A DNA stretch of 64,000 bases from Lachnospiraceae bacterium 28-4. GTDB taxonomy: Bacteria > Bacillota > Clostridia > Lachnospirales > Lachnospiraceae. The stretch is taken from assembly GCA_000403275.2 (NCBI GenBank), contig KE159598.1, forward strand, positions 450,128-514,127, in the 5' to 3' direction. The notes under the pieces are model-generated. The model saw nothing but the letters and a program-made list of their open reading frames with translations, searched no databases and was not told where the DNA came from. Each line of letters opens with the position of its first letter. Position 1 is the first letter of the stretch. Made by a program: the position numbers and the translations under genes. Shown here in pieces: positions 52,950 to 63,793 of the stretch.

Positions 52950-53214
52950 AAAGGTAGGAGAAACGATTACAGCGAAAGGAAAGGATGTGGCCGACAAAGC
53001 GAAGGATTTTGCCGAGATAGCCAGCTTGAGAAGCCAGATCAGCACATGTGAAGAGGTAATGAAAAAGAATTACCTGGAGATCGGGAAACTGTATTATGAA
53101 CAGTTTAAAGAAGCAGAGTACAATGATTTTGTGGAGCAGTGTACGGCGATCACGAACGCTAAAAACGGCGTGGAAGCATTGGAAGCAAAGATCAAAGAAA
53201 TTAAAGGAGTATAA
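52936..53214 (+). CDS. Small coiled-coil hypothetical protein
   Basis: 92 residues: MEFFEKVGETITAKGKDVAD, KAKDFAEIASLRSQISTCEE, then KNYLEIGKLYYEQFKEAEYN. One long helix pair; the DUF-type small protein often found in Firmicutes with a zinc ribbon at the end, which is lacking here. GGAGGACG precedes the ATG. Overlap with the carbonic anhydrase gene suggests joint expression. Confidence 0.7.
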   Translation: MEFFEKVGETITAKGKDVADKAKDFAEIASLRSQISTCEEVMKKNYLEIGKLYYEQFKEAEYNDFVEQCTAITNAKNGVEALEAKIKEIKGV

Positions 53215-53229
53215 TATATGGGTGAAGAG

Positions 53230-53259
53230 GGCAGCAGTCGTTACGATTGCTGCCTTTTT
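53230..53259 (+). terminator. Terminator after the carbonic anhydrase operon
   Basis: GGCAGCAGTCG pairs with CGATTGCTGCC around TTA, followed by five T. The T run joins directly to an F-type element. Confidence 0.85.
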
Positions 53260-53345
53260 ATGCGCAGAGGCGCGTAAGTAAATTAGCAGCTTTGCTGCAC
53301 GCGCCCCGCGCGGCGAGTAGGGAAGATGAATCTTCTCTACTCGAT
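53260..53345. repeat. Small two-hairpin element, family F copy 2
   Basis: ATGCGCAGAGGCGCGT...ACGCGCCCC encloses GCAGC-TTT-GCTGC. The CGAGTAG/CTACTCG hairpin that follows is identical to copy 1. It also starts right after a terminator T-run. The stretch from here to 53512 holds only the recombinase promoter. Confidence 0.75.
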
Positions 53346-53458
53346 TCGCCTAAGCCTTAAAACATCGTAATATTCAGTTCAAAGACTTTTCCCACAAAAT
53401 ATCTGACAGGGCATACCAATCATTAGCATATCCTTGTCTCTTTCAGGACAATTTTAAA

Positions 53459-53486
53459 TTGCATAACTTTAGGCTTCCTTTAAAAT
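53459..53486 (+). promoter_or_regulatory. Possible promoter of the serine recombinase gene
   Basis: TTGCAT (53459-53464), 16 bp, TAAAAT (53481-53486), about 27 bp before the start codon. This promoter lies outside the invertible segment, so the recombinase would be expressed in either orientation. Confidence 0.45.
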
Positions 53487-53512
53487 GAATTTAAAAAAAG
53501 AGGAGGAGCAAT

Positions 53513-54097
53513 ATGAATACATATGGATATGTCCGCGTCTCAACCAAAGAGCAAAACGAGGATAGACAGATGATTGCCATGCGAAATTTTGGTATAGCAA
53601 ATAGCAGTATCATATTGGACAAACAGAGCGGTAAAGATTTTGAGCGTCCTGGATATCAGCGGTTGATACAAAAATTAAAAACAGGGGATACTCTTGTCAT
53701 TAAAAGTATCGACCGGCTGGGGCGGGATTATGAAGAAATTTTGGAGCAATGGCGTTTACTGACCCGGGAAAAACAGGTTGATATTGTGGTGCTGGACATG
53801 CCGCTGCTGGATACCCGCCAGGGGAGGGATCTTACAGGGGCGCTGATTGCCGATATTTTACTCCAGTTATTGTCTTATGTGGCTCAGACAGAGCGGGAAT
53901 TTAACCGCCAGCGGCAGACCGAAGGAATTGCCGCGGCCAAGGCCAAGGGTATACATTTGGGGCGGAAGTTCAAAGAGCGGGGGGAGAACTATGAATCTGT
54001 CATGGCCGCATGGCGCAGGGGAGAAATCAGCGGAAGAGCAGCTGCAAGAGAACTGGGGGTGGCTCACGGAACCTTCCAGCGGTGGTGCAGAGAATAA
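53513..54097 (+). CDS. Serine recombinase of invertase/resolvase type
   Basis: 194 residues, the size of Hin and Gin. Catalytic domain: MNTYGYVRVSTKEQNEDRQM with the active Ser in RVSTKEQ; LVIKSIDRLGRDYEEI with the conserved Arg pair; YVAQTEREFNRQRQTEGIA leading into the long E helix. The C-terminal domain carries GEISGRAAARELGVAHGTFQRW as the DNA-binding helix-turn-helix. AAGAGGAGGAGC precedes the ATG. Five bases after its stop begins the first of two 26-bp inverted sites, so I infer that it is a site-specific DNA invertase controlling the downstream polysaccharide operon. A resolvase is the alternative, but the site orientation predicts inversion. Confidence 0.88.
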   Translation: MNTYGYVRVSTKEQNEDRQMIAMRNFGIANSSIILDKQSGKDFERPGYQRLIQKLKTGDTLVIKSIDRLGRDYEEILEQWRLLTREKQVDIVVLDMPLLDTRQGRDLTGALIADILLQLLSYVAQTEREFNRQRQTEGIAAAKAKGIHLGRKFKERGENYESVMAAWRRGEISGRAAARELGVAHGTFQRWCRE

Positions 54098-54101
54098 ATT
54101 G

Positions 54102-54273
54102 GGATTACAAAGTGTGGGTTACAATCCGCATAAAAAAGCCTTAATTTTGGGCAAGATAATGTTATTTTTAAGGATAGCATGTCTTGCTCTTTATTATTTT
54201 TTACAGAAATTCTAACATATAACCTTAAATTTTGCAATAAGGAAAACGGCTTGCAACCTACACTTTGCAAGCC
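54102..54273. other. Predicted invertible promoter segment (inverton) with two 26-bp inverted sites
   Basis: The left site 54102-54127 and right site 54248-54273 are 26 bp each and match as inverted repeats at 21 of 26 positions (shared block CAAAGTGT, one mismatch, GGTT). The right site is itself a near-perfect dyad (GGCTTGCAA/TTGCAAGCC), the 12-2-12 layout of Hin-type sites; the central two bases are GT on the left and AC on the right, that is, inverted and compatible. Between them lie 120 bp with a minus-strand promoter. The segment sits between a Hin-size recombinase and a polysaccharide operon. Confidence 0.72.
54209..54237 (-). promoter_or_regulatory. Extended -10 promoter inside the invertible segment, facing away from the polysaccharide operon
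   Basis: On the minus strand TTGCAA (54232-54237), 17 bp, TAGAAT (54209-54214) with TG one base upstream of the -10. It reads toward the recombinase. Inverting the segment would point it at the metallophosphoesterase gene 40 bp further on. No plus-strand promoter of similar quality is seen in the segment. Confidence 0.6.
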
Positions 54274-54313
54274 ATTATGGATTGGCTCTTATGAATTATC
54301 AGGAGATTGGCAT

Positions 54314-55204
54314 ATGTACAAAAATATAAGCAAGATAGATAGAAGCAAGGCGGCCGGACCGAAACGGCGTGGACGGCTCTTACTATATGGTTTTCTGGCA
54401 GCTGTTGTATTGGCAGCTGCCGGGCATTATATGTTTTCAGAGGAACTGGAAACAACATTCTACCATTTGTATTCCCCTAAAGTGGCAGCTGGAGAAAATA
54501 TCCGGGTTGTAGTTTTGTCAGATCTGCATAATAGAGAATTCGGTCCGGACAATGCGGACTTGTTGGAACGGATTGCGGCGCTGAACCCCGATCTGATTGC
54601 TGTGGCCGGCGATATGGTAAACGCGGATGAGGAGAATTTAGATGTTGTTCTGACTTTGTGCAGCGGCCTGGTTGAGATTGCTACTGTTTATTATAGTCCG
54701 GGCAACCACGAGAGCAATCTCATGTATGAAAAAGGAAGTCCCATTGAAAGCTTGCTTCTGGAGCGAGGCGTCCATGTTCTGGTAAATCGTGCGGAGGAAG
54801 CAGACATACATAGAACTCCGCTCCTAATTGGCGGGCTGACCACTTCCACAGAAGACTATGAGGAGTATGGCGCTGAGTTTTTTGAAGAATACGAAAATAG
54901 CAGTGCTTTTAAATTGCTGATTGCCCACTACCCCAGTCTTTATTACGAGTATCTGGCAGATGGAAATATTGATTTGGGCATCTGCGGACACTATCATGGC
55001 GGACAGTTCCGGTTCCCAGTGGTGGGCGGGATTTATCACGGGGATACAGGTCTTTTTCCGAAGTACAACGCGGGAATGTACAAACTCGCTAATGGTACAA
55101 TCTTTGTATCGCGGGGTATGGGGGGACATAATGGACTGCCCCGCATCAATAATCGCCCTGAATTGGCGGTCATTGATATCAACGGCCGTCAAGAAACACA
55201 ATAA
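54314..55204 (+). CDS. Membrane-anchored metallophosphoesterase
   Basis: 296 residues from ATG 54314 (AGGAG upstream). N-terminal basic part, a membrane helix at about 25-42 (LLLYGFLAAVVLAAAGHYMF), then a calcineurin-like domain outside: VVLSDLHNREFGPDN, DLIAVAGDMVNADEEN, VYYSPGNHESN, ICGHYHGGQFRFP. All metal-site motifs are intact. YkuE-like enzymes of this type act on phosphorylated lipids or nucleotides. As first gene of the polysaccharide operon it may recycle undecaprenyl pyrophosphate or a sugar-lipid phosphate; that is inference. Confidence 0.88.
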   Translation: MYKNISKIDRSKAAGPKRRGRLLLYGFLAAVVLAAAGHYMFSEELETTFYHLYSPKVAAGENIRVVVLSDLHNREFGPDNADLLERIAALNPDLIAVAGDMVNADEENLDVVLTLCSGLVEIATVYYSPGNHESNLMYEKGSPIESLLLERGVHVLVNRAEEADIHRTPLLIGGLTTSTEDYEEYGAEFFEEYENSSAFKLLIAHYPSLYYEYLADGNIDLGICGHYHGGQFRFPVVGGIYHGDTGLFPKYNAGMYKLANGTIFVSRGMGGHNGLPRINNRPELAVIDINGRQETQ

Positions 55205-55221
55205 AAAGGAGTGGCAGCAAT

Positions 55222-56691
55222 ATGATTCTGGTAAGCATGATTGTTCCGGCACTGATTTTGTGCCTTGTCGTCTTATATGCAGAGCTGATCCGGCGTTTCT
55301 TCTTAATAAAATCCAAAATCCCATTTTGGGGTCTGCGCGGTATGCTGGGCCGTACGGCAGGGAAACGGCGGAGACTGGCGGCGATGGGGGCGTTGATTTT
55401 GGCAGTTAGTTTCTGGGCGCAGATAGCTGTAGATTTCTGGGCGCCCGGTATGCTGATGGTATTTAATTATGAGGAGGCAGCCCGGGGGCAGAACCCCAAC
55501 GTCACCCGGTTTAATGAGTCTGACATCCTCTCCGATGATATTCTGGAAAAGGTAATCCAGCGGGGGCAGCTGAACCTCAGTGTGGAGCAGTTATCCAAAT
55601 GCCTGAGTATCTCGACCTCGCTGGATGCGGAGAAGCTGGATGTGACTCAGGAGTCCGACCTGAAAATTTCCACGGAATATCGTGTCCGCTGCGCTGAATG
55701 GGTGTCCGTTTACGGTACAGAGCCAAAGACGGTGCTGAACCTCCTGGCCGATGTGTACTGGGGGAATTTTGTACTCAATTATGCGGAAAACGATAGCGTA
55801 TTGGATCTTTCTTTTGACGGACTGGAAGAGATGGAGTATTTGGACGTGAAGGATTATCTGGAGATGCAGGCGAATAAACTGCGCAACTATCTCCCTGGCT
55901 ATAGCAGTGAGAGCAGCAGTTTCCGGGCAGAGGGAAATGAGGAAACTTTTGCTTCCCTGTCCCAGAAAATCAGCAATTTTATTGATATTGAACTGGAACG
56001 CTACGAAGCCTTTATTTTGGAAAACGGATTGGCCAGGAGCAGGAATACATATCAATCCCGGATGCAGTATGTCAACTATCGATTGGACACCTCCCAAAGA
56101 AAAGACATGGCGGCGCATGATGTGCGGATTGAGGCAATCAATATGTACAATGCCTATATGACCCGCTTTGTTTTGATTCCCACTTACGATGTGGACAAGG
56201 AATTCTATATGTCTAAAACTAAGGTAGGCGTAGACTATTTTGCGGACGAGGCAAAAGAATATCTGGAATCTGCTGCAGAACTGGTAGAGGAAATGGAACA
56301 TAACACATACGCTTCCCGGCAGGTGGGCAGATCTTACGTGTTTTCATCTATTTACGACCAGGCAGACCAGCGGATTGAGGAACTGAAGGCTGAACTGATC
56401 AATCTGGCCGTTCAGAGCCGGGAACTTTGTGGAGCTTATGTTAAGGAAAAGAGGGACGGTTATATTCAGGTAGGTTTCACAGAATCTCCTGCGTTGAGCC
56501 GGGCTATTTCCGCCTTGCTGATCACAGGACTGTTTGTCGCCGCATGGAGCGGCAAGGCCATTCTGGAGCCTTTTTATCGAGAGTACAAGGGCGGCGGGGC
56601 TGTCGGATGGAAGGGATGGAGAGAATGGAAAGGGCGGAAAAAATGGAGAGAAAAATACAAGAATAAAAGTCGGAAGGAGAATGGGGCATGA
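55222..56691 (+). CDS. Polytopic membrane protein of the polysaccharide locus
   Basis: 489 residues. Hydrophobic segments at about 3-24 and 52-75, a large extracellular helical region (about 80-430: YEEAARGQNPNVTRFNESDI, CLSISTSLDAEKLDVTQESD, then RQVGRSYVFSSIYDQADQRI), and a last membrane helix at about 425-448 (ALLITGLFVAAWSGKAILEP), then a basic tail. The two-ended anchor around a helical domain resembles chain-length-type (Wzz) proteins, but I cannot assign it. The stop overlaps the next ATG (ATGA), so they are coupled. The ATG is preceded by AAAAAGGAG. Confidence 0.72.
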   Translation: MILVSMIVPALILCLVVLYAELIRRFFLIKSKIPFWGLRGMLGRTAGKRRRLAAMGALILAVSFWAQIAVDFWAPGMLMVFNYEEAARGQNPNVTRFNESDILSDDILEKVIQRGQLNLSVEQLSKCLSISTSLDAEKLDVTQESDLKISTEYRVRCAEWVSVYGTEPKTVLNLLADVYWGNFVLNYAENDSVLDLSFDGLEEMEYLDVKDYLEMQANKLRNYLPGYSSESSSFRAEGNEETFASLSQKISNFIDIELERYEAFILENGLARSRNTYQSRMQYVNYRLDTSQRKDMAAHDVRIEAINMYNAYMTRFVLIPTYDVDKEFYMSKTKVGVDYFADEAKEYLESAAELVEEMEHNTYASRQVGRSYVFSSIYDQADQRIEELKAELINLAVQSRELCGAYVKEKRDGYIQVGFTESPALSRAISALLITGLFVAAWSGKAILEPFYREYKGGGAVGWKGWREWKGRKKWREKYKNKSRKENGA

Positions 56692-57164
56692 AAGAACTGG
56701 ATGTTTTTCGATATCTCAAAAAATATCGCGCTGTAATTGCCGGGCTGTCAGTGCTGACAGGCATCCTGTTTTATATAGTCGCCCAGTTCCATATTCAGCA
56801 GTACACCGCGATCACAGTCATTGAGTATACCGGTTCCCGGGCGGAAGAGGGCTATTCCCCTGATGGAAAGAAAATTGATACCACTGAAATATATGCTACA
56901 AATCTGGTGGCTCAGGCTCTGAAAAAATTGGATGTGGACGATACAGAGGCAACGATAGACAGTATCCGCATGAACATCCATGTAGAGCCTGTTATTACGG
57001 AGGAGGATCTGCTGGTGCAGCAGTCCAAGCTGGACAACGGAGAAAAAGATTATGAAATCAATCCTACCCAGTATGTGGTGTCTTTCAACTGCGGCGTCAG
57101 TAATGGCAAGGAATACCCCCGAAAAGTTTTGAACCAGATTCTTCAGGAATACGCCAGTTATTAG
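56688..57164 (+). CDS. Wzz-like chain-length determinant, N-terminal part, ended by in-frame TAG
   Basis: 158 residues. One membrane helix at about 18-38 (VIAGLSVLTGILFYIVAQF) follows a short cytoplasmic start (MKELDVFRYLKKY). Then the periplasmic-type Wzz start (QYTAITVIEYTGSRAEEGYS). The frame stops at TAG 57162-57164 in ILQEYASY-stop-GKTHVNTSLAANPVSD. The following sequence in the same frame continues as a natural protein for another 465 codons, so this is the front half of a single gene of about 624 residues. The expected residue at the stop position is probably aromatic. Confidence 0.75.
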   Translation: MKELDVFRYLKKYRAVIAGLSVLTGILFYIVAQFHIQQYTAITVIEYTGSRAEEGYSPDGKKIDTTEIYATNLVAQALKKLDVDDTEATIDSIRMNIHVEPVITEEDLLVQQSKLDNGEKDYEINPTQYVVSFNCGVSNGKEYPRKVLNQILQEYASY

Positions 57165-57242
57165 GGAAAAACCCATGTCAATACTTCGCTGGCGGCCAAT
57201 CCGGTCAGTGATATTACCACCAAGGGTTACGACTATCTGGAG

Positions 57243-58562
57243 ATGGCCGAGGTCATGGATGATACCCTGACCAGTATTACAGAACATCTTTCGGACAAGG
57301 TGGAGTGGAATGGTGAATTTCGTTCCAGTCGGACGGGTTATAGTTTTCAGGACTTGAAGGACGAATTTGAATTTATTCAGGACGTAGAAGTGCGCCAATT
57401 GTTCTCTGAGATCCTGGTAGGGCAGGTCACTAAGGATCGGGATCTGCTTCTGGAGAAATATCGGAATCGGAACAACGACTTGTCTATATCCAATAGCGCC
57501 GTAGCCTTTGAGATTGAAAAAATCCGAGGCATTATCGGAGCCTATGAGGACGCCATGGGGGATTTCAGTGTTCCTGTTATCAATGCTGATGGAGAGAGCC
57601 CGGGAAATCCGCTTCAGAATAACGTCTTGCCGGATGTCTACGATGATGGGAATAGCGACGAAGACGGAAACTGGATACCGGTGGATCGGACTGCGGAGTA
57701 TGACCAGTTGCTGATGGCGTATATCGAGGATAGAACCCTTTATGAACATAACCTGATTGACAATGATTACAACAATTATATCATCGATGTGTTTACCAAA
57801 GCCCCGGCCGTATCTTCGGAGGCCGGCCAGCAAAGCATTCAGGCGGAGATTGCTTGTCTGGCAGAGAAAATTAACGCTCTCCAGTCGATCTATTACGAAA
57901 CAAATGATGAGTACAATGAGTATCTGGGTGCGCAGAATATTATGATGCTATCCAGCGTACGGGTGACAGAGCGTTTCCCCGTCCTGATTTTTACAGTGCT
58001 GATAGTGGTGATCTTCGGAGCGCTGGGCTGTGCCGGTGCGGCATTATTCGGCAGGATCGAGGACTTTATTGAGTATTATGCTTTTACTAACAAGGTGGAC
58101 GATTTGCCTAACCGGGCTAAATGCGACCAGTTCATTGCACAGCGGGAACACCGTCCGATTATGGGCAATTTCGTCTGCGTTGTATTTAAGCTTGCCAATT
58201 TGCAGAAAGAAAATGCCCGTCTGGGCCGGGAGGCCGGCGATCGGATGATAAAGGATTTTGTGGAGATTATTACGTCAGTGTTTGCTCCCTCCAACAAGGT
58301 ATTTGTAGGTAATAATGGTGCAGGGCAGTATTTGATTTTTGCGGAGTCTATGGACAAGGAACAGGTGATCGCCGCTCTGTTTCAGGTGGGCATTGTTCTG
58401 GAAGAGAGATCCAGGGAGCGGGGCTACCATATTGATCTAAAACATGGGTATGCTTATGCAGCGGAGGAGCAATGCTTCTATATCCGTGAATTGCTGTCGA
58501 TTACCATGAAGAGGGTCGGAACCGAAAACGACCCTAAAAAGCCGGAAACCACAGTAGTCTGA
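57243..58562 (+). CDS. Wzz-like/GGDEF protein, C-terminal part after the amber codon
   Basis: Same frame as the gene above; the open stretch really begins at 57165, and ATG 57243 is only the first possible restart (no ribosome site). It continues the helical extracellular part, then a second membrane helix at about 242-262 of this segment (LIFTVLIVVIFGALGCAGAALF) and a cytoplasmic domain of about 155 residues resembling GGDEF: VDDLPNRAKCDQFI, FKLANLQKENARLGREAGDRMIKDF, and VGNNGAGQYLIFAE where GGDEF would be. The active-site loop is degenerate (GAGQY), so it should bind or sense rather than make c-di-GMP. Confidence 0.7.
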   Translation: MAEVMDDTLTSITEHLSDKVEWNGEFRSSRTGYSFQDLKDEFEFIQDVEVRQLFSEILVGQVTKDRDLLLEKYRNRNNDLSISNSAVAFEIEKIRGIIGAYEDAMGDFSVPVINADGESPGNPLQNNVLPDVYDDGNSDEDGNWIPVDRTAEYDQLLMAYIEDRTLYEHNLIDNDYNNYIIDVFTKAPAVSSEAGQQSIQAEIACLAEKINALQSIYYETNDEYNEYLGAQNIMMLSSVRVTERFPVLIFTVLIVVIFGALGCAGAALFGRIEDFIEYYAFTNKVDDLPNRAKCDQFIAQREHRPIMGNFVCVVFKLANLQKENARLGREAGDRMIKDFVEIITSVFAPSNKVFVGNNGAGQYLIFAESMDKEQVIAALFQVGIVLEERSRERGYHIDLKHGYAYAAEEQCFYIRELLSITMKRVGTENDPKKPETTVV

Positions 58563-58597
58563 CGAGGCGGAATGTCAGAAGAACAGGGAGTAGGTCT

Positions 58598-59896
58598 TTG
58601 GTCTCAATGATTTATATGGTATTGGCAACGGCAATGTTTTTTCTTCAGGATACATATTTTTTGGTGGCTGGCATGGAGTTGAGCCTTAAAAATCCCTGTG
58701 CATTGGCAATTTTGTTTCTGGCATTGCTGAACTTTATTGTAACAGTGCGGCTGGACCGCCTAATGGTATTGATCCGCCATACAGCAGTCCAGGTGCTGCC
58801 TTATCTAATTCCGCTGGTTTTTTCGGCTGTAATTTGGGTAAGCACAAAGGCCGGGGGAGCTGCCGTCATGAATGGCGTATCCATGATTTTTCCACAGATG
58901 CTGTCAGTGCTTGTAGCAGCTGCTACTTTGTATCTTTTTGGCGAAAAGGGAATTTGGTATTGTTTGGGGGCTATGTGCGCTGCAAATTTCATAAGTATAC
59001 TGGTTGTGGTTTATACAGGCGGATTCTCGGAATTCCTACAGGAACTTTATATCCTTCTGGCCACTTTCAGCAAAGAGACTGGTCCGCTGATGATGCGGCT
59101 GGAGACTCATGACTTGACCTTTGCTTTTGGGCCTTTCCTGCTTTATCTCATGCTGCACTGGAAAAAGTCCCCGCATCCTCTTCTCTGGCTGGTTCTTGTA
59201 TCCTGCTTCTGGCTGGTTGGCTTGAAGAGGATTGCTTTCCCGGCCTTGGCGTCAGGGCTTTTGTCAGCATTGCTGTTGCGGCGGATGCCGGAGAAAGCTG
59301 CAAGGCAGACAGCGTTGTGCGTAGCTGTGGCTATGATGGCGGTTAGCTTTCTTTACATCGCGGGAATTCGGTACGGCTTGTTTGAATTCCTGGAGATGCG
59401 GTTAGGGCTGGATACAAAAGGCAGGGCGCTGCTATTTGCAAATGTGGAGCCCTACTACGAAATCAGTTTTACTTACATAGGGAGGGGGACAGGGTTTGAG
59501 CGTATGGTGGAGTGGCTTTCCGGGACAATGCAGACAATTCCTTTGCGTACACAGACTCAGATCCACAACGATTTTCTCCGTATGTACCTGAATATCGGTT
59601 TTTTTGGGTATTGGATCTGGCTCTGGAGCTGGCTGCCTGCAAGGCTGAATTACTGGTTCCGTCAAGCAGGAAAGGATGCAGGCTGCCTTTTTCTGGGAAT
59701 TTGCACTTATTGCTTCGTCCTTTATGCTACAGACAATACAATCTATTATCCTTATACCATCATTGCCTGTACCCTGATTCCTATGGTCTGCCAGTTTGAT
59801 GCTCAAGCAAAAGCTGCTCTGGAAAGGCAGTGTATTCAGTGGGGCGGAGAAAAGGAAAGCGGATCTGGCAGGGAGGCTGCAAATATTGAGAGGTGA
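58598..59896 (+). CDS. Polysaccharide polymerase, Wzy-like
   Basis: 432 residues from TTG 58598, seven bases after AGGGAG; ATG 58607 is the alternative. About ten membrane helices with a large extracellular loop near residues 270-320 (MRLGLDTKGRALLFANVEPY, IGRGTGFERMVEWL, TQIHNDFLRMYLNIGFFGYW). The R-x-x-x-x and H-N-D-x-L-R segments are those of the O-antigen ligase/polymerase (Wzy) family. It would polymerise lipid-linked repeat units outside the membrane. Length and topology fit. Confidence 0.8.
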   Translation: MVSMIYMVLATAMFFLQDTYFLVAGMELSLKNPCALAILFLALLNFIVTVRLDRLMVLIRHTAVQVLPYLIPLVFSAVIWVSTKAGGAAVMNGVSMIFPQMLSVLVAAATLYLFGEKGIWYCLGAMCAANFISILVVVYTGGFSEFLQELYILLATFSKETGPLMMRLETHDLTFAFGPFLLYLMLHWKKSPHPLLWLVLVSCFWLVGLKRIAFPALASGLLSALLLRRMPEKAARQTALCVAVAMMAVSFLYIAGIRYGLFEFLEMRLGLDTKGRALLFANVEPYYEISFTYIGRGTGFERMVEWLSGTMQTIPLRTQTQIHNDFLRMYLNIGFFGYWIWLWSWLPARLNYWFRQAGKDAGCLFLGICTYCFVLYATDNTIYYPYTIIACTLIPMVCQFDAQAKAALERQCIQWGGEKESGSGREAANIER

Positions 59897-59902
59897 GTCG
59901 GC

Positions 59903-60373
59903 TTGAAAAAGAGAAAATTGCGGGTCTGCTTTGCTGCATCCTCCGGGGGGCATTTATTGGAATTGATGATGCTGGACCCTTTGATGGATCAATATGACAG
60001 CTTTCTGGTTACAGAGAAGACAGCCTATAGAGCTGCTCTGAAAGGTATGCGGTGCCACTGCCTTTTACAAGTGAACCGACGAGAATGGCTCTGTATACCA
60101 AAGCTGATTATAAACACTTTTTATTCTTTGGCAATCTGCTTGGTGGAACGGCCGGACGTGGTGGTCTGCACCGGCGTGCTGGCAACAATCCCCCTTTGTC
60201 TGTTATGCAAGATGTTCGGGAAAAAATTGGTGTTTATTGAGTCTTATGCAAAGGTGAAAACCCCCACACTGACGGGAAAACTCCTTTATCATTTTGCGGA
60301 TCGTTTCTATGTCCAGTGGCAGGAACTGCTGGAGTTTTATCCAAAGGCTATACATGTAGGCGGCATTTATTAG
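59903..60373 (+). CDS. PssD/EpsE (Alg14-like) membrane subunit of a glycosyltransferase
   Basis: 156 residues from TTG 59903 with GAGAGG upstream. VCFAASSGGHLLELMMLDPL is the Alg14 start. VVVCTGVLATIPLCLLCKMF and KLVFIESYAKVKTPTLTGKL follow. It anchors the catalytic partner encoded next (60497-60973). Together they add the second sugar to lipid-linked repeat units. Its stop codon TAG is contained in the start of an E-type hairpin element. Confidence 0.85.
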   Translation: MKKRKLRVCFAASSGGHLLELMMLDPLMDQYDSFLVTEKTAYRAALKGMRCHCLLQVNRREWLCIPKLIINTFYSLAICLVERPDVVVCTGVLATIPLCLLCKMFGKKLVFIESYAKVKTPTLTGKLLYHFADRFYVQWQELLEFYPKAIHVGGIY

Positions 60374-60484
60374 TGTGAAGAGAAGTTCTAAGGCTCGCAC
60401 CAGTGGGTGCTTCGCCAAGAACTTCTAATACTTCACACCGGAACTTCAGCTCCGGGGGATTGTGTGATTCCGCGAAGCGGAATC
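60373..60484. repeat. Small hairpin element, family E copy 2
   Basis: Almost identical to copy 1 (7268): GTGTGAAGAG, GGCTC-GCACC-AGTG-GGTGC-TTCGCC, AAGAACTTCT, ending CTTCACAC at 60438. Followed by CCGGA/TCCGG and GATTCCGC/GCGGAATC hairpins. It is inserted inside an operon between two subunits of one enzyme, overlapping the first stop codon. Confidence 0.75.
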
Positions 60485-60496
60485 ATGGAGGTTAGT

Positions 60497-60973
60497 ATGA
60501 TATTTGTAACAGTTGGGTCTCAGAAGTTTCCCTTTAACCGTTTGATCGGAAAAATAGATCAAATGATTCGAAGTGGTTTTATAAAAGAAGATGTCTTTAT
60601 CCAAACGGGAACCAGTGAATATATTCCAGTCTGCCCCCATCAGGCATTCTGTGACCGGGAACACTTTGAAAGGATGATGGAAACCTACAATATCCTTATC
60701 GCCCATGGAGGCGCGGGTACCATGGTGGATGCTGTGAAACGGGGAAAGAAAGTTATTGTTGTTCCGCGCCTGGCTCGGTATGAGGAGCATGTAGACGACC
60801 ATCAGATGGAGCTGGCAGTACGGTTTCATGAGATGAATTTGATTCGCGTTTGCATGGATGTGGAGCAGCTGCCCGATATGCTTCTGGGTCTCGACGGACA
60901 TAGTTTTGCTCAGTTCCAGTCCAATACGGAGGCTCTTCTTACGTCTTTGGACGGCTATATCCGTTCGCTGTAA
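60497..60973 (+). CDS. PssE/EpsF (Alg13-like) glycosyltransferase subunit
   Basis: 158 residues from ATG 60497, preceded by GGAGG. MIFVTVGSQKFPFNRLIGKI, then DVFIQTGTSEYIPV, YNILIAHGGAGTMVDAVKRG and VVPRLARYEEHVDDHQMELA: the UDP-sugar-binding C-terminal domain type of GT28/Alg13. It forms the active enzyme with the Alg14-like membrane protein encoded just upstream. Together they transfer a sugar to undecaprenyl-linked acceptors. Confidence 0.87.
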   Translation: MIFVTVGSQKFPFNRLIGKIDQMIRSGFIKEDVFIQTGTSEYIPVCPHQAFCDREHFERMMETYNILIAHGGAGTMVDAVKRGKKVIVVPRLARYEEHVDDHQMELAVRFHEMNLIRVCMDVEQLPDMLLGLDGHSFAQFQSNTEALLTSLDGYIRSL

Positions 60974-61790: not shown

Positions 61791-62360
61791 TTGCCGAAAA
61801 TAAAAATTGATAAAGAATCGGTTATCAAAGAAGCTGCATATATAGCAAATACGATAGGCATAGAAAACCTATCTTTAAAAACGCTTGCATCGCAATTAGG
61901 CGTTAAGTCGCCATCGCTTTATAACCATATAGATGGGCTTGACGACCTAAAACAGCAGCTTATGCTATATGGTTGGAAAGAATTAGAAGACAAAATTATT
62001 CAATCTGTAATAGGATTTTCTGGATATGATGCGATTAGAGCTATGTGCTACGCTTTTCATGAATATGCAATAGAGAATCAAGGAGTTTTTAGCACAATGC
62101 TTTGGTACAATCAATTTGAGAATGAACAGATGAATGAAGTGACTTCAAAAATGTTTTCAATTTTTTTCAAAATAACTAAGTCACTAAATATTTCACAAGA
62201 TAATTGCATTCATTTAGTCAGAATGTTTAGAAGTTTTTTAGAGGGCTTTGCATTACTTGAAAATCATAACGCCTTTGGTAATACACAGTTGATAAAAGAT
62301 AGTTTTGAATTATCAATAGACATTTTAATTGAGGGAGCAAAAAAATTAGAGGGGAAATGA
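61791..62360 (+). CDS. TetR-family regulator
   Basis: 189 residues from TTG 61791, which has AAAGGAGGAG eight bases upstream. N-terminal helix-turn-helix: ESVIKEAAYIANTIGIENLS, LKTLASQLGVKSPSLYNHID. The C-terminal ligand domain is of the TetR_C_33 type (AIRAMCYAFHEYAIENQGVF). It probably represses the serine-hydrolase gene, whose start overlaps or follows its stop. AT-rich composition differs from the polysaccharide operon, consistent with transfer. Confidence 0.85.
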   Translation: MPKIKIDKESVIKEAAYIANTIGIENLSLKTLASQLGVKSPSLYNHIDGLDDLKQQLMLYGWKELEDKIIQSVIGFSGYDAIRAMCYAFHEYAIENQGVFSTMLWYNQFENEQMNEVTSKMFSIFFKITKSLNISQDNCIHLVRMFRSFLEGFALLENHNAFGNTQLIKDSFELSIDILIEGAKKLEGK

Positions 62361-62401
62361 TAGCGCATGGTATATCAGAAAAAAACAAGGGAAAAGGTTT
62401 T

Positions 62402-63793
62402 ATGAATCGAAAAATCAGGCAAATCATTTGTGTAATACTGTCACTAATTTGTGTTATTGCTATATGGGATAAGCCTGTTTTGGCATATGAAAAAAGTAGC
62501 AATTATAGCGATATTGACAGCCAGATAAAAAAAGAAATAAAGGAATTACATATTCCCGGAATGGCGATAGCCATTGTAGACTCTAAAGAGGTTCTGTTTT
62601 CTGAAGCTTATGGAAATTGCGATAATTTAGATACGCCTTTTATTATAGGCTCATTGAGCAAATCATTTACAGCATTAGCTGTTATGCAGCTTGTGGAAGA
62701 AGAAAAAGTAGATTTAGACACGACAATATCTGATTATATTGATACATCTGATTATTTTATAAATGTGTCCGACGGAGATAAAATTACTGTAAGACAGCTT
62801 TTGAATCAGACAAGCGGTTTAGGGACATATCAGCGTTTTGGAAATGCAAAAATAACAGAAAGTTACGGACAACATCAATATGCAAATATCAATTATGGAT
62901 TGTTAGGAGAAATCATAGAAACAGTCAGCGGAATTAGCTATTCAGAGTATATGGATAAAAACATTTTTTCTCCACTAAGTATGAATCATACGGCAGCAAC
63001 ACTTGTACAAAGCAAAGAAAACGGATTGATAACAGGATATCGAAATTATTTTGGACTTCCGATTGCGGGAGAGCCGGACTATCCCGATAAACATTCATGG
63101 TCTACCGTTCCGGCAGGTTATTTAAGTTCCAGTGTATCAGATATGGCAAAATATCTGCAAATGTATCTAAATGGAGGAATGGGAATAGTCAATCAGAATA
63201 GTTTAAATACTATGCTTTATGACAATGTATATGTAGATGATAACACTCCCTATTATTACGGAATGGGGTGGACTTTGACAGAAGAATATACAGAGCCTGT
63301 ATTGGGGCATTCAGGGCTGGTTGAGAATTATATGTCTAATGTGTATCTATTGCCGGAAAGCGGATTAGGAATCATTTTCCTTATCAATATGAACGATTAT
63401 CTTGTCACGAATCAACTGGCAGATATTATCTCCCAAAATGTGATATTTGCTCTTTTGGGCAGAGAACAATATGATATATCTGGCAGCCCGTATATTGTAA
63501 GACACCTGTTGCTGAATGGAGCATATTTAGCGTTGGTTGCAGTGGCAGTATATCCGATAGCAACAATAAGAAAATGGAAGAAAAAGAAACAGACAACAAG
63601 ACTGATACTCTTTGACATTACAAGGCATGGCATATTGCCACTACTGTTACTCTGTTTGCCCTATATGGTAGGTATTCCATTATGGGTAGTATGGTATTTT
63701 GTAAAAGACTTGTTCATTGTATTGCTGTTAAATGCAAGTTTGCTTTTGGTTATAGGCTTATACAAAATATTTTTTGCAATATTCAAGATATGA
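62402..63793 (+). CDS. Serine beta-lactamase-like hydrolase with C-terminal membrane helices
   Basis: 463 residues from ATG 62402, which starts a signal peptide (MNRKIRQIICVILSLICVIA); an ATG at 62357 overlapping the TetR stop is in frame. The S-x-x-K motif is in FIIGSLSKSFTALAVMQLVE, Y-x-N is YANINYGLLGE, and the third element is probably LGHSGLVENYMSNVYLLPES (H-S-G). This is the class C/PbpX (beta-lactamase) fold, acting on cell-wall peptides or other amides outside. Four hydrophobic helices follow at about 385-460. Not a classical drug-resistance enzyme. Confidence 0.8.
   Translation: MNRKIRQIICVILSLICVIAIWDKPVLAYEKSSNYSDIDSQIKKEIKELHIPGMAIAIVDSKEVLFSEAYGNCDNLDTPFIIGSLSKSFTALAVMQLVEEEKVDLDTTISDYIDTSDYFINVSDGDKITVRQLLNQTSGLGTYQRFGNAKITESYGQHQYANINYGLLGEIIETVSGISYSEYMDKNIFSPLSMNHTAATLVQSKENGLITGYRNYFGLPIAGEPDYPDKHSWSTVPAGYLSSSVSDMAKYLQMYLNGGMGIVNQNSLNTMLYDNVYVDDNTPYYYGMGWTLTEEYTEPVLGHSGLVENYMSNVYLLPESGLGIIFLINMNDYLVTNQLADIISQNVIFALLGREQYDISGSPYIVRHLLLNGAYLALVAVAVYPIATIRKWKKKKQTTRLILFDITRHGILPLLLLCLPYMVGIPLWVVWYFVKDLFIVLLLNASLLLVIGLYKIFFAIFKI

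Follow-up and report, generated by a model that had tools for sequence, protein, structure and literature searches.

Hin, Gin, and Cin are small serine recombinases that are encoded next to the sites on which they act, the 26-bp inverted dyads of 12-2-12 layout known as hix and gix, and their reaction flips a promoter. Mpi of Bacteroides fragilis is a serine invertase that acts on many distant capsule promoters. In the fimS/FimE system of Escherichia coli, the recombinases are tyrosine recombinases, the promoter in the OFF orientation faces the adjacent recombinase gene, and the expression of the recombinase depends on the orientation. RecV is likewise a tyrosine recombinase. The available part of one study describes the switching of flg and cwpV in Clostridioides difficile via RecV, with one recombinase serving several switches, and gives termination in the OFF orientation of flg, which uses Rho, as part of the control (PMC7446863). 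In its available portion, a community survey ties a Clostridia-rich group of invertons to tyrosine recombinases, and the word "serine" is absent from the main text there (PMC11892184). The titles listed and the passages covered contain no description of a family that joins a recombinase to a site at its stop codon; the inverton surveys by Jiang and Chanin may contain one.

We have analyzed a 64-kb stretch of DNA (the window) from the 4.28-Mb genome of Lachnospiraceae bacterium 28-4. It very probably contains a self-contained phase switch, in which a recombinase flips a 120-bp promoter segment and turns polysaccharide genes on or off. A recombinase with a promoter inverton is a kind of system that is already known. 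What is added here is the regular place of the sites at the recombinase stop codon, a pair of natural loci inverted relative to one another, a probable terminator that flips with the segment in the clade of the window, and a bias toward the OFF orientation.

The locus resembles the Hin, Gin, and Cin systems in its small serine recombinase, its 26-bp inverted dyads of 12-2-12 layout, the adjacent recombinase gene, and the promoter in the segment. It differs in that the recombinase gene lies outside the segment of ~120 bp and in that the protein scores lower against these invertases than against Sin. With Mpi it shares a serine recombinase and predicted promoter inversion ahead of surface polysaccharide genes, whereas the genome contains only two sites and the recombinase falls below the cut-off of the Mpi model. 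The RecV switches are similar in belonging to the Clostridia, in the use of inversion, and, for flg, in termination in the OFF orientation; the window has instead its own serine recombinase for this one switch, and a hairpin as probable terminator in place of Rho. As with fimS, the segment promoter faces the adjacent recombinase gene in the OFF orientation, but the fim recombinases are of the tyrosine type, and the proteins and sites are others. The locus would be a dedicated, local serine-recombinase switch, in contrast to the tyrosine recombinases of the Clostridia-rich group in the available portion of the survey (PMC11892184).

Recombinase and Crossover Sites

The recombinase gene (53513–54097, plus strand) encodes the 194-residue serine recombinase that the sequence-only reading had named, and the protein matches the Pfam Resolvase family at 6.8e-31 (107.8 bits; cut-off 23.3). 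Arg8, Ser10, Arg68, and Arg71 occupy the positions that bear these numbers in gamma-delta resolvase, and we take these residues to have the catalytic roles assigned to them in small serine recombinases. Of the solved relatives, Sin/Tn552 bin3 comes first (3.7e-27), followed by gamma-delta resolvase (1.3e-21) and, behind both, DNA-invertase entries at 7e-15 and 1.5e-14. PHROG 125, annotated as "DNA invertase", matches at 2.4e-52, and the NCBIfam Mpi model (NF009949) gives 51.4 bits, under its curated cut-off of 272. The alignment with gamma-delta extends to residue 188, and no HTH family was reported by Pfam. The earlier label "Hin-type" holds for the layout of the sites and not for the protein, which most resembles the Sin/Tn552 and gamma-delta resolvases, with the DNA-invertase entries further off. 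Other recombinases of the same family, 51–67% identical over most of their length, are present in the genus.

A possible promoter for the recombinase gene, TTGCAT-16-TAAAAT (53459–53486, plus strand), was read by eye and is absent from the list of the consensus scan. Further upstream, at 53225–53259, a hairpin with a terminal T-run follows a 92-residue gene and is likely a terminator, shielding the recombinase from the preceding genes.

The left crossover site (54102–54127, plus strand) has a central GT at 54114–54115, and the right site (54248–54273, minus strand) has a central AC at 54260–54261. The claim of two inverted 26-bp sites, 120 bp apart and identical at 21 of 26 positions, with a 12-2-12 layout and compatible centers, was confirmed. 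The distance from the recombinase gene to the left site had been given as five bases; it is four, the stop codon ending at 54097. The intersite segment (54128–54247, 120 bp) is predicted to invert from its architecture and from inversion in relatives. A degenerate site pattern with up to three mismatches matched the two sites alone in the window (0 of 100 shuffles) and again the two alone in the whole genome (0 for the reversed control); the pattern was built from these same sites, so the searches establish uniqueness and are not an independent discovery. With no further copy in the genome, the switch looks local. When the half-sites were compared, the present arrangement matched better than the swapped one (21 vs 16 of 32), as if inversion were rare.

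Promoter and Hairpin within the Segment

A minus-strand promoter, TTGCAA-17-TAGAAT with an extended −10, had been read between the sites as pointing away from the polysaccharide genes. It was found as described, running from 54237 to 54209 and directed at the recombinase gene, with TG preceding the −10 and a score that none of 200 shuffled versions of the segment reached (p = 0.005). Its position between inverted repeats, known here as a sequence match only, is that of the promoter in promoter invertons. The promoter occurs at the same position in two relatives, L040 and L041, with recombinases 83–84% identical. Between 54274 and 54313, the consensus scan listed no promoter in the rightward direction.

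The segment also contains a feature absent from the sequence-only reading, a rightward hairpin (54149–54189) with a U-rich tract (54149–54202 in all, plus strand), located between the minus-strand promoter and the left site. The hairpin folds with −19.4 kcal/mol (z −6.4; 0 of 200 shuffles as good), and the corresponding stretches of the three nearest relatives, L040, L041, and L042, fold with −36.5, −25.0, and −27.6, respectively, and in each case no shuffle out of 200 did as well. The four sequences share 18 pairs, each formed in at least three of the four, and both-side changes are found in 7 of the 18. The paired cells in the alignment amount to 94.4%, compared with 89.2 after shuffling (1 of 500 as high) and 43.5–63.8 when slid, in a comparison that includes four sequences only and a structure derived from those same sequences. 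On the opposite strand the hairpin of the window reaches just −7.5 kcal/mol, because it is reliant on G-U pairs. The U-run of L040 and L041 begins some bases past the stem. A simple terminator scan of the window did not list the hairpin, and an Rfam scan gave one match, which is subthreshold and elsewhere.

As the segment now lies, the hairpin is, from its sequence, probably a terminator of rightward RNA, and inversion would remove it. A terminator opposing the promoter throughout the family was considered and rejected: a hairpin with a T-tract was opposite to the promoter in 15 and along it in 16 of 35 loci, and when hairpins were compared by plain folding in 26 loci, the stronger one lay opposite to the promoter in 6 and along it in 12. 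The assignment as a probable terminator is retained for the clade of the window only.

Inverted State and Proposed Mechanism

After inversion in silico at the central GT/AC, the promoter lies at 54138–54166, with a start at ~54173 and a predicted leader of 141 nt to the ATG at 54314. In this ON form, a run of six Ts stands some way past the reversed hairpin, and the stem that belongs to it is weak (−2.8). The start at 54314 was chosen by the ribosome site AGGAG at 54301–54305; the same frame extends back without a stop to an ATG at 54179, within the segment.

From the sites, the promoter sequence, the conserved hairpin, and the inversion observed in relatives, we infer that the segment of the window would flip, that the operon would be turned on and off, and that the hairpin would terminate transcription. 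The recombinase would bind each 26-bp dyad and pair both sites, and strand exchange at the central GT/AC would invert the 120-bp segment. The sequenced state would be OFF: the sole good promoter points leftward, in the antisense direction relative to the recombinase gene, and the segment terminator would halt rightward transcription from the recombinase. After inversion to ON, the promoter would read from ~54173 into the phosphoesterase and polysaccharide genes from 54314 onward, and the hairpin, then transcribed from its opposite strand, would be far weaker.

Downstream Operon

The first gene past the switch encodes a calcineurin-like phosphoesterase (54314–55204); it and the genes that follow up to 60973 are on the plus strand. 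It is followed by a gene for a 489-residue protein without a family match (55222–56691) and by a single reading frame (56688–58562) that is split by an in-frame stop at 57162–57164 and that matches GGDEF weakly, under the Pfam cut-off, in its second part. The stop may mean that this gene of the switched operon is broken in the sequenced strain. The remaining genes encode a Wzy/O-antigen-ligase-like protein (58598–59896; match below the Pfam cut-off) and glycosyltransferase subunits of the PssD/Cps14F type (59903–60373) and the PssE/Cps14G type (60407–60973).

The Wzy-like gene is present in 1 of the 16 genus genomes, namely its own. To the left of the recombinase, a gene named by eye as carbonic-anhydrase-like has a strong match in 13 of the 16, and the small gene after it was kept as a neighbor in the 9 genus stretches that were fetched. 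Given the distribution of the Wzy-like and left-hand genes, the switch and operon look acquired, and the stretch from the recombinase and switch to the Wzy-like gene (53214–60973) looks like an acquired island. The segment DNA was found in 1 of the 16 genus genomes, its own, so that the window locus is represented by one orientation from one assembly. Searches of plasmids for the locus and of viral contigs for its left junction returned no match. Beyond the operon, at 61791–63793, a TetR-type regulator adjoins a serine hydrolase of the beta-lactamase/PBP family.

Site Pairs across Relatives

Recombinase loci down to ~50% identity were collected from 299 family, 16 genus, and 391 class genomes and from genome contigs. 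Removal of 10 of the 169 nonredundant loci, which lacked 430 clean downstream bases, left 159. A pair was counted when its members were inverted and at least 20 of 26 positions alike, with the left member starting at −29 to +78 of the stop codon. Such a pair was found near the recombinase stop in 51 of the 159 loci (window included), compared with 3 of 795 shuffles, 1 of 153 upstream stretches, and 1 of 146 further-downstream stretches; the other 108 loci are without a pair at 20/26. A larger locus set gave 53 of 177 at the same threshold, against 5 of 885 shuffles, 1 of 171 upstream stretches, and 1 of 159 far stretches. Among phage contigs, 72 of 80 loci had enough DNA, and a pair at 20/26 was present in 7 of 40 loci of at least 50% identity and in 0 of 32 below.

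The common site motif of the family is AAAGT-NN-ACTTT. The cores of the window sites, GTGTGG and GTGTAG, deviate from the commoner GTGTAC. Pairs at least 19 of 26 alike were found at 63 loci, of which 5 with a poor motif score were excluded from scoring (L114, which had a poor score in the motif model, is outside the remaining 58). The central dinucleotide is equal in both sites in all 58 scored loci; the selection of alike pairs favors this result, yet other core columns differ at 2–14% and outer columns at up to 45%. Five dinucleotide types occur between loci (GT 34, AG 18, AT 4, AA 1, and TT 1), and they follow the recombinase tree, with 14 changes compared with 20.9 when shuffled (0 of 200 as low). 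The swapping of half-sites was tried as an inversion clock on the 58 loci; the signal was weak (p = 0.013) and is not used as support.

These results provide a searchable rule: a small serine recombinase of this family, then an AAAGT-NN-ACTTT dyad pair near its stop codon, and then the switched gene. One genome (G245) holds six recombinases of the family, including L148 (pair 19/26) and L170 (pair 20/26). In L018, L019, L028, and L073, the left site appears by eye as a long near-perfect palindrome, with a T-run in L019, and may double as the recombinase terminator.

Natural Inversion in Relatives

Identical recombinases are encoded by L114, from an Oscillibacter MAG, and L266, from an IMG/VR contig. 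The flanks of these two loci match in the same orientation (99.85% over 644 bp and 97.1% over 2820 bp), and the 142-bp stretch between the flanks matches at 97.2% in the opposite orientation. When the stretch is turned back, the differences at the junctions are outer half-site bases that stay with the flanks, giving hybrid half-sites, and this places the crossover inside the shared GTTGTATAC core. The two loci differ by an exact inversion of the segment, which is decisive for inversion in the family. The segment of L114 has no significant promoter, so the pair proves inversion and not promoter switching. Directly past the switch in L114 (2464–2934), an open frame resembles, by eye, the C-terminal part of a further serine recombinase.

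A homologous segment was also found inverted between more distant loci, with scores of 45.5 vs 14.5 (L046/L051), 33.5 vs 11 (L046/L048), 29 vs 9.5 (L129/L134), 28 vs 8 (L056/L073), and 25 vs 14.5 (L185/L191); in 300 shuffled comparisons the 99th percentile was 17 and the maximum was 18.5. Same-orientation pairs of relatives outnumber opposite ones, and the window, L040, and L041 are all the same way round.

Contig ends within 300 bp of the recombinase numbered 15 downstream and 4 upstream, compared with 5 and 11 at 301–1000 bp; the counts were pooled by hand from several searches, in which some genomes may appear more than once, with L107 (truncated gene) excluded and L085 (broken gene) kept. 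The excess has p = 0.019 when pooled (15 vs 4) and p = 0.08 for strand-based rows (10 of 92 vs 3 of 91). A core or half-core lies in the last 15 bases of 5 of 17 contig ends (the 15 and two others), by a motif that was written after some ends had been seen. Mixed orientations in the reads would produce such contig breaks, and this evidence is circumstantial.

The earlier proposal of a promoter inverton beside its own recombinase is supported by inversion in nature within the family and by the full architecture in the window. Very probably, the locus is a functional promoter inverton with its own serine recombinase that governs a small polysaccharide island. It is unlikely that a former switch is now locked OFF, with its parts still recognizable and inversion having ceased at this locus. 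Such a loss would fit sites that are only 21 of 26 alike, the orientation shared with L040 and L041, half-sites that match each other better as they stand, and the in-frame stop in the operon. The recombinase is nevertheless intact with its catalytic residues, the central dinucleotides are equal, and loci with sites 19–22 of 26 alike do have partners in the opposite orientation.

Orientation Bias and Cargo

A promoter within the segment (p ≤ 0.05) was found for 26 of the 51 pairs, the other 25 being without a significant one. It faces the recombinase in 23 of the 26 and the downstream gene in 3. At a threshold of at least 19/26, where 35 of 63 loci have a promoter, the numbers are 30 and 5, respectively, and after thinning of the relatives to <75% identity they are 18 and 3 (p = 0.0015). 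This bias means either that OFF predominates in sequenced material or that the OFF state is stabilized.

The same orientation counts (23 of 26, and 18 of 21 after thinning) would be accommodated if the segment flipped but its promoter chiefly made antisense RNA against the recombinase, with the polysaccharide genes owning another promoter. This explanation is very improbable: the first ORF past the right site, from mechanical ORF calls, is codirectional in 57 of 63 loci, polysaccharide, restriction, and surface genes are among the downstream ORFs, and the consensus scan is without a rightward promoter in 54274–54313. It is scarcely credible that the dyads are not inversion sites but operators at which the recombinase gene is autoregulated, or else a resolvase res site, since the closeness of the protein sequence to the Sin and gamma-delta resolvases and the dyad form of the sites are outweighed by their inverted rather than direct arrangement downstream of the gene, by the equal central dinucleotides in 58 of 58 loci, and, strongly for the family, by the natural inversion of L114/L266 at the corresponding sites.

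With the promoter switch as the preferred reading, the antisense direction of the OFF promoter into the recombinase makes a latch possible. We suggest only tentatively that the loci represent a self-regulating, OFF-latched cassette that is spread across the Clostridia and has moved as a unit before varied cargo. In the OFF state, antisense transcription would lower the recombinase and the cell would stay OFF; in the clade of the window, the flipping terminator would in addition insulate the operon. In the ON state, the antisense transcription would be gone, the recombinase would rise, and the cell would return to OFF. Movement as a unit would have placed the cassette in front of capsule, restriction-modification, BREX-like, and surface-protein genes. 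With a dedicated local switch of this kind, direct tests of the OFF bias and of the proposed antisense latch become possible.

Among 30 first genes that were scanned, 5 are of a polysaccharide type (L040, L081, L116, L138, and L184), 5 are of a restriction, methylase, or helicase type (L042, L048, L056, L171, and, below the cut-off, L185), 7 are without a Pfam family, and the remainder are varied. In a set of 56 first genes, BrxA, SpaA, and LRR occur once or twice each, two match IS605 transposases, some are housekeeping-like (e.g., RrnaAD), and no family is common to more than three. Of the second or third genes, 74 of 93 were tallied, with three cases of CpsB and two each of SLH, sortase, and sugar transferase. 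In L040, the nearest relative of the window on the tree, the switch precedes a capsule-type AAA_31/CpsB pair.
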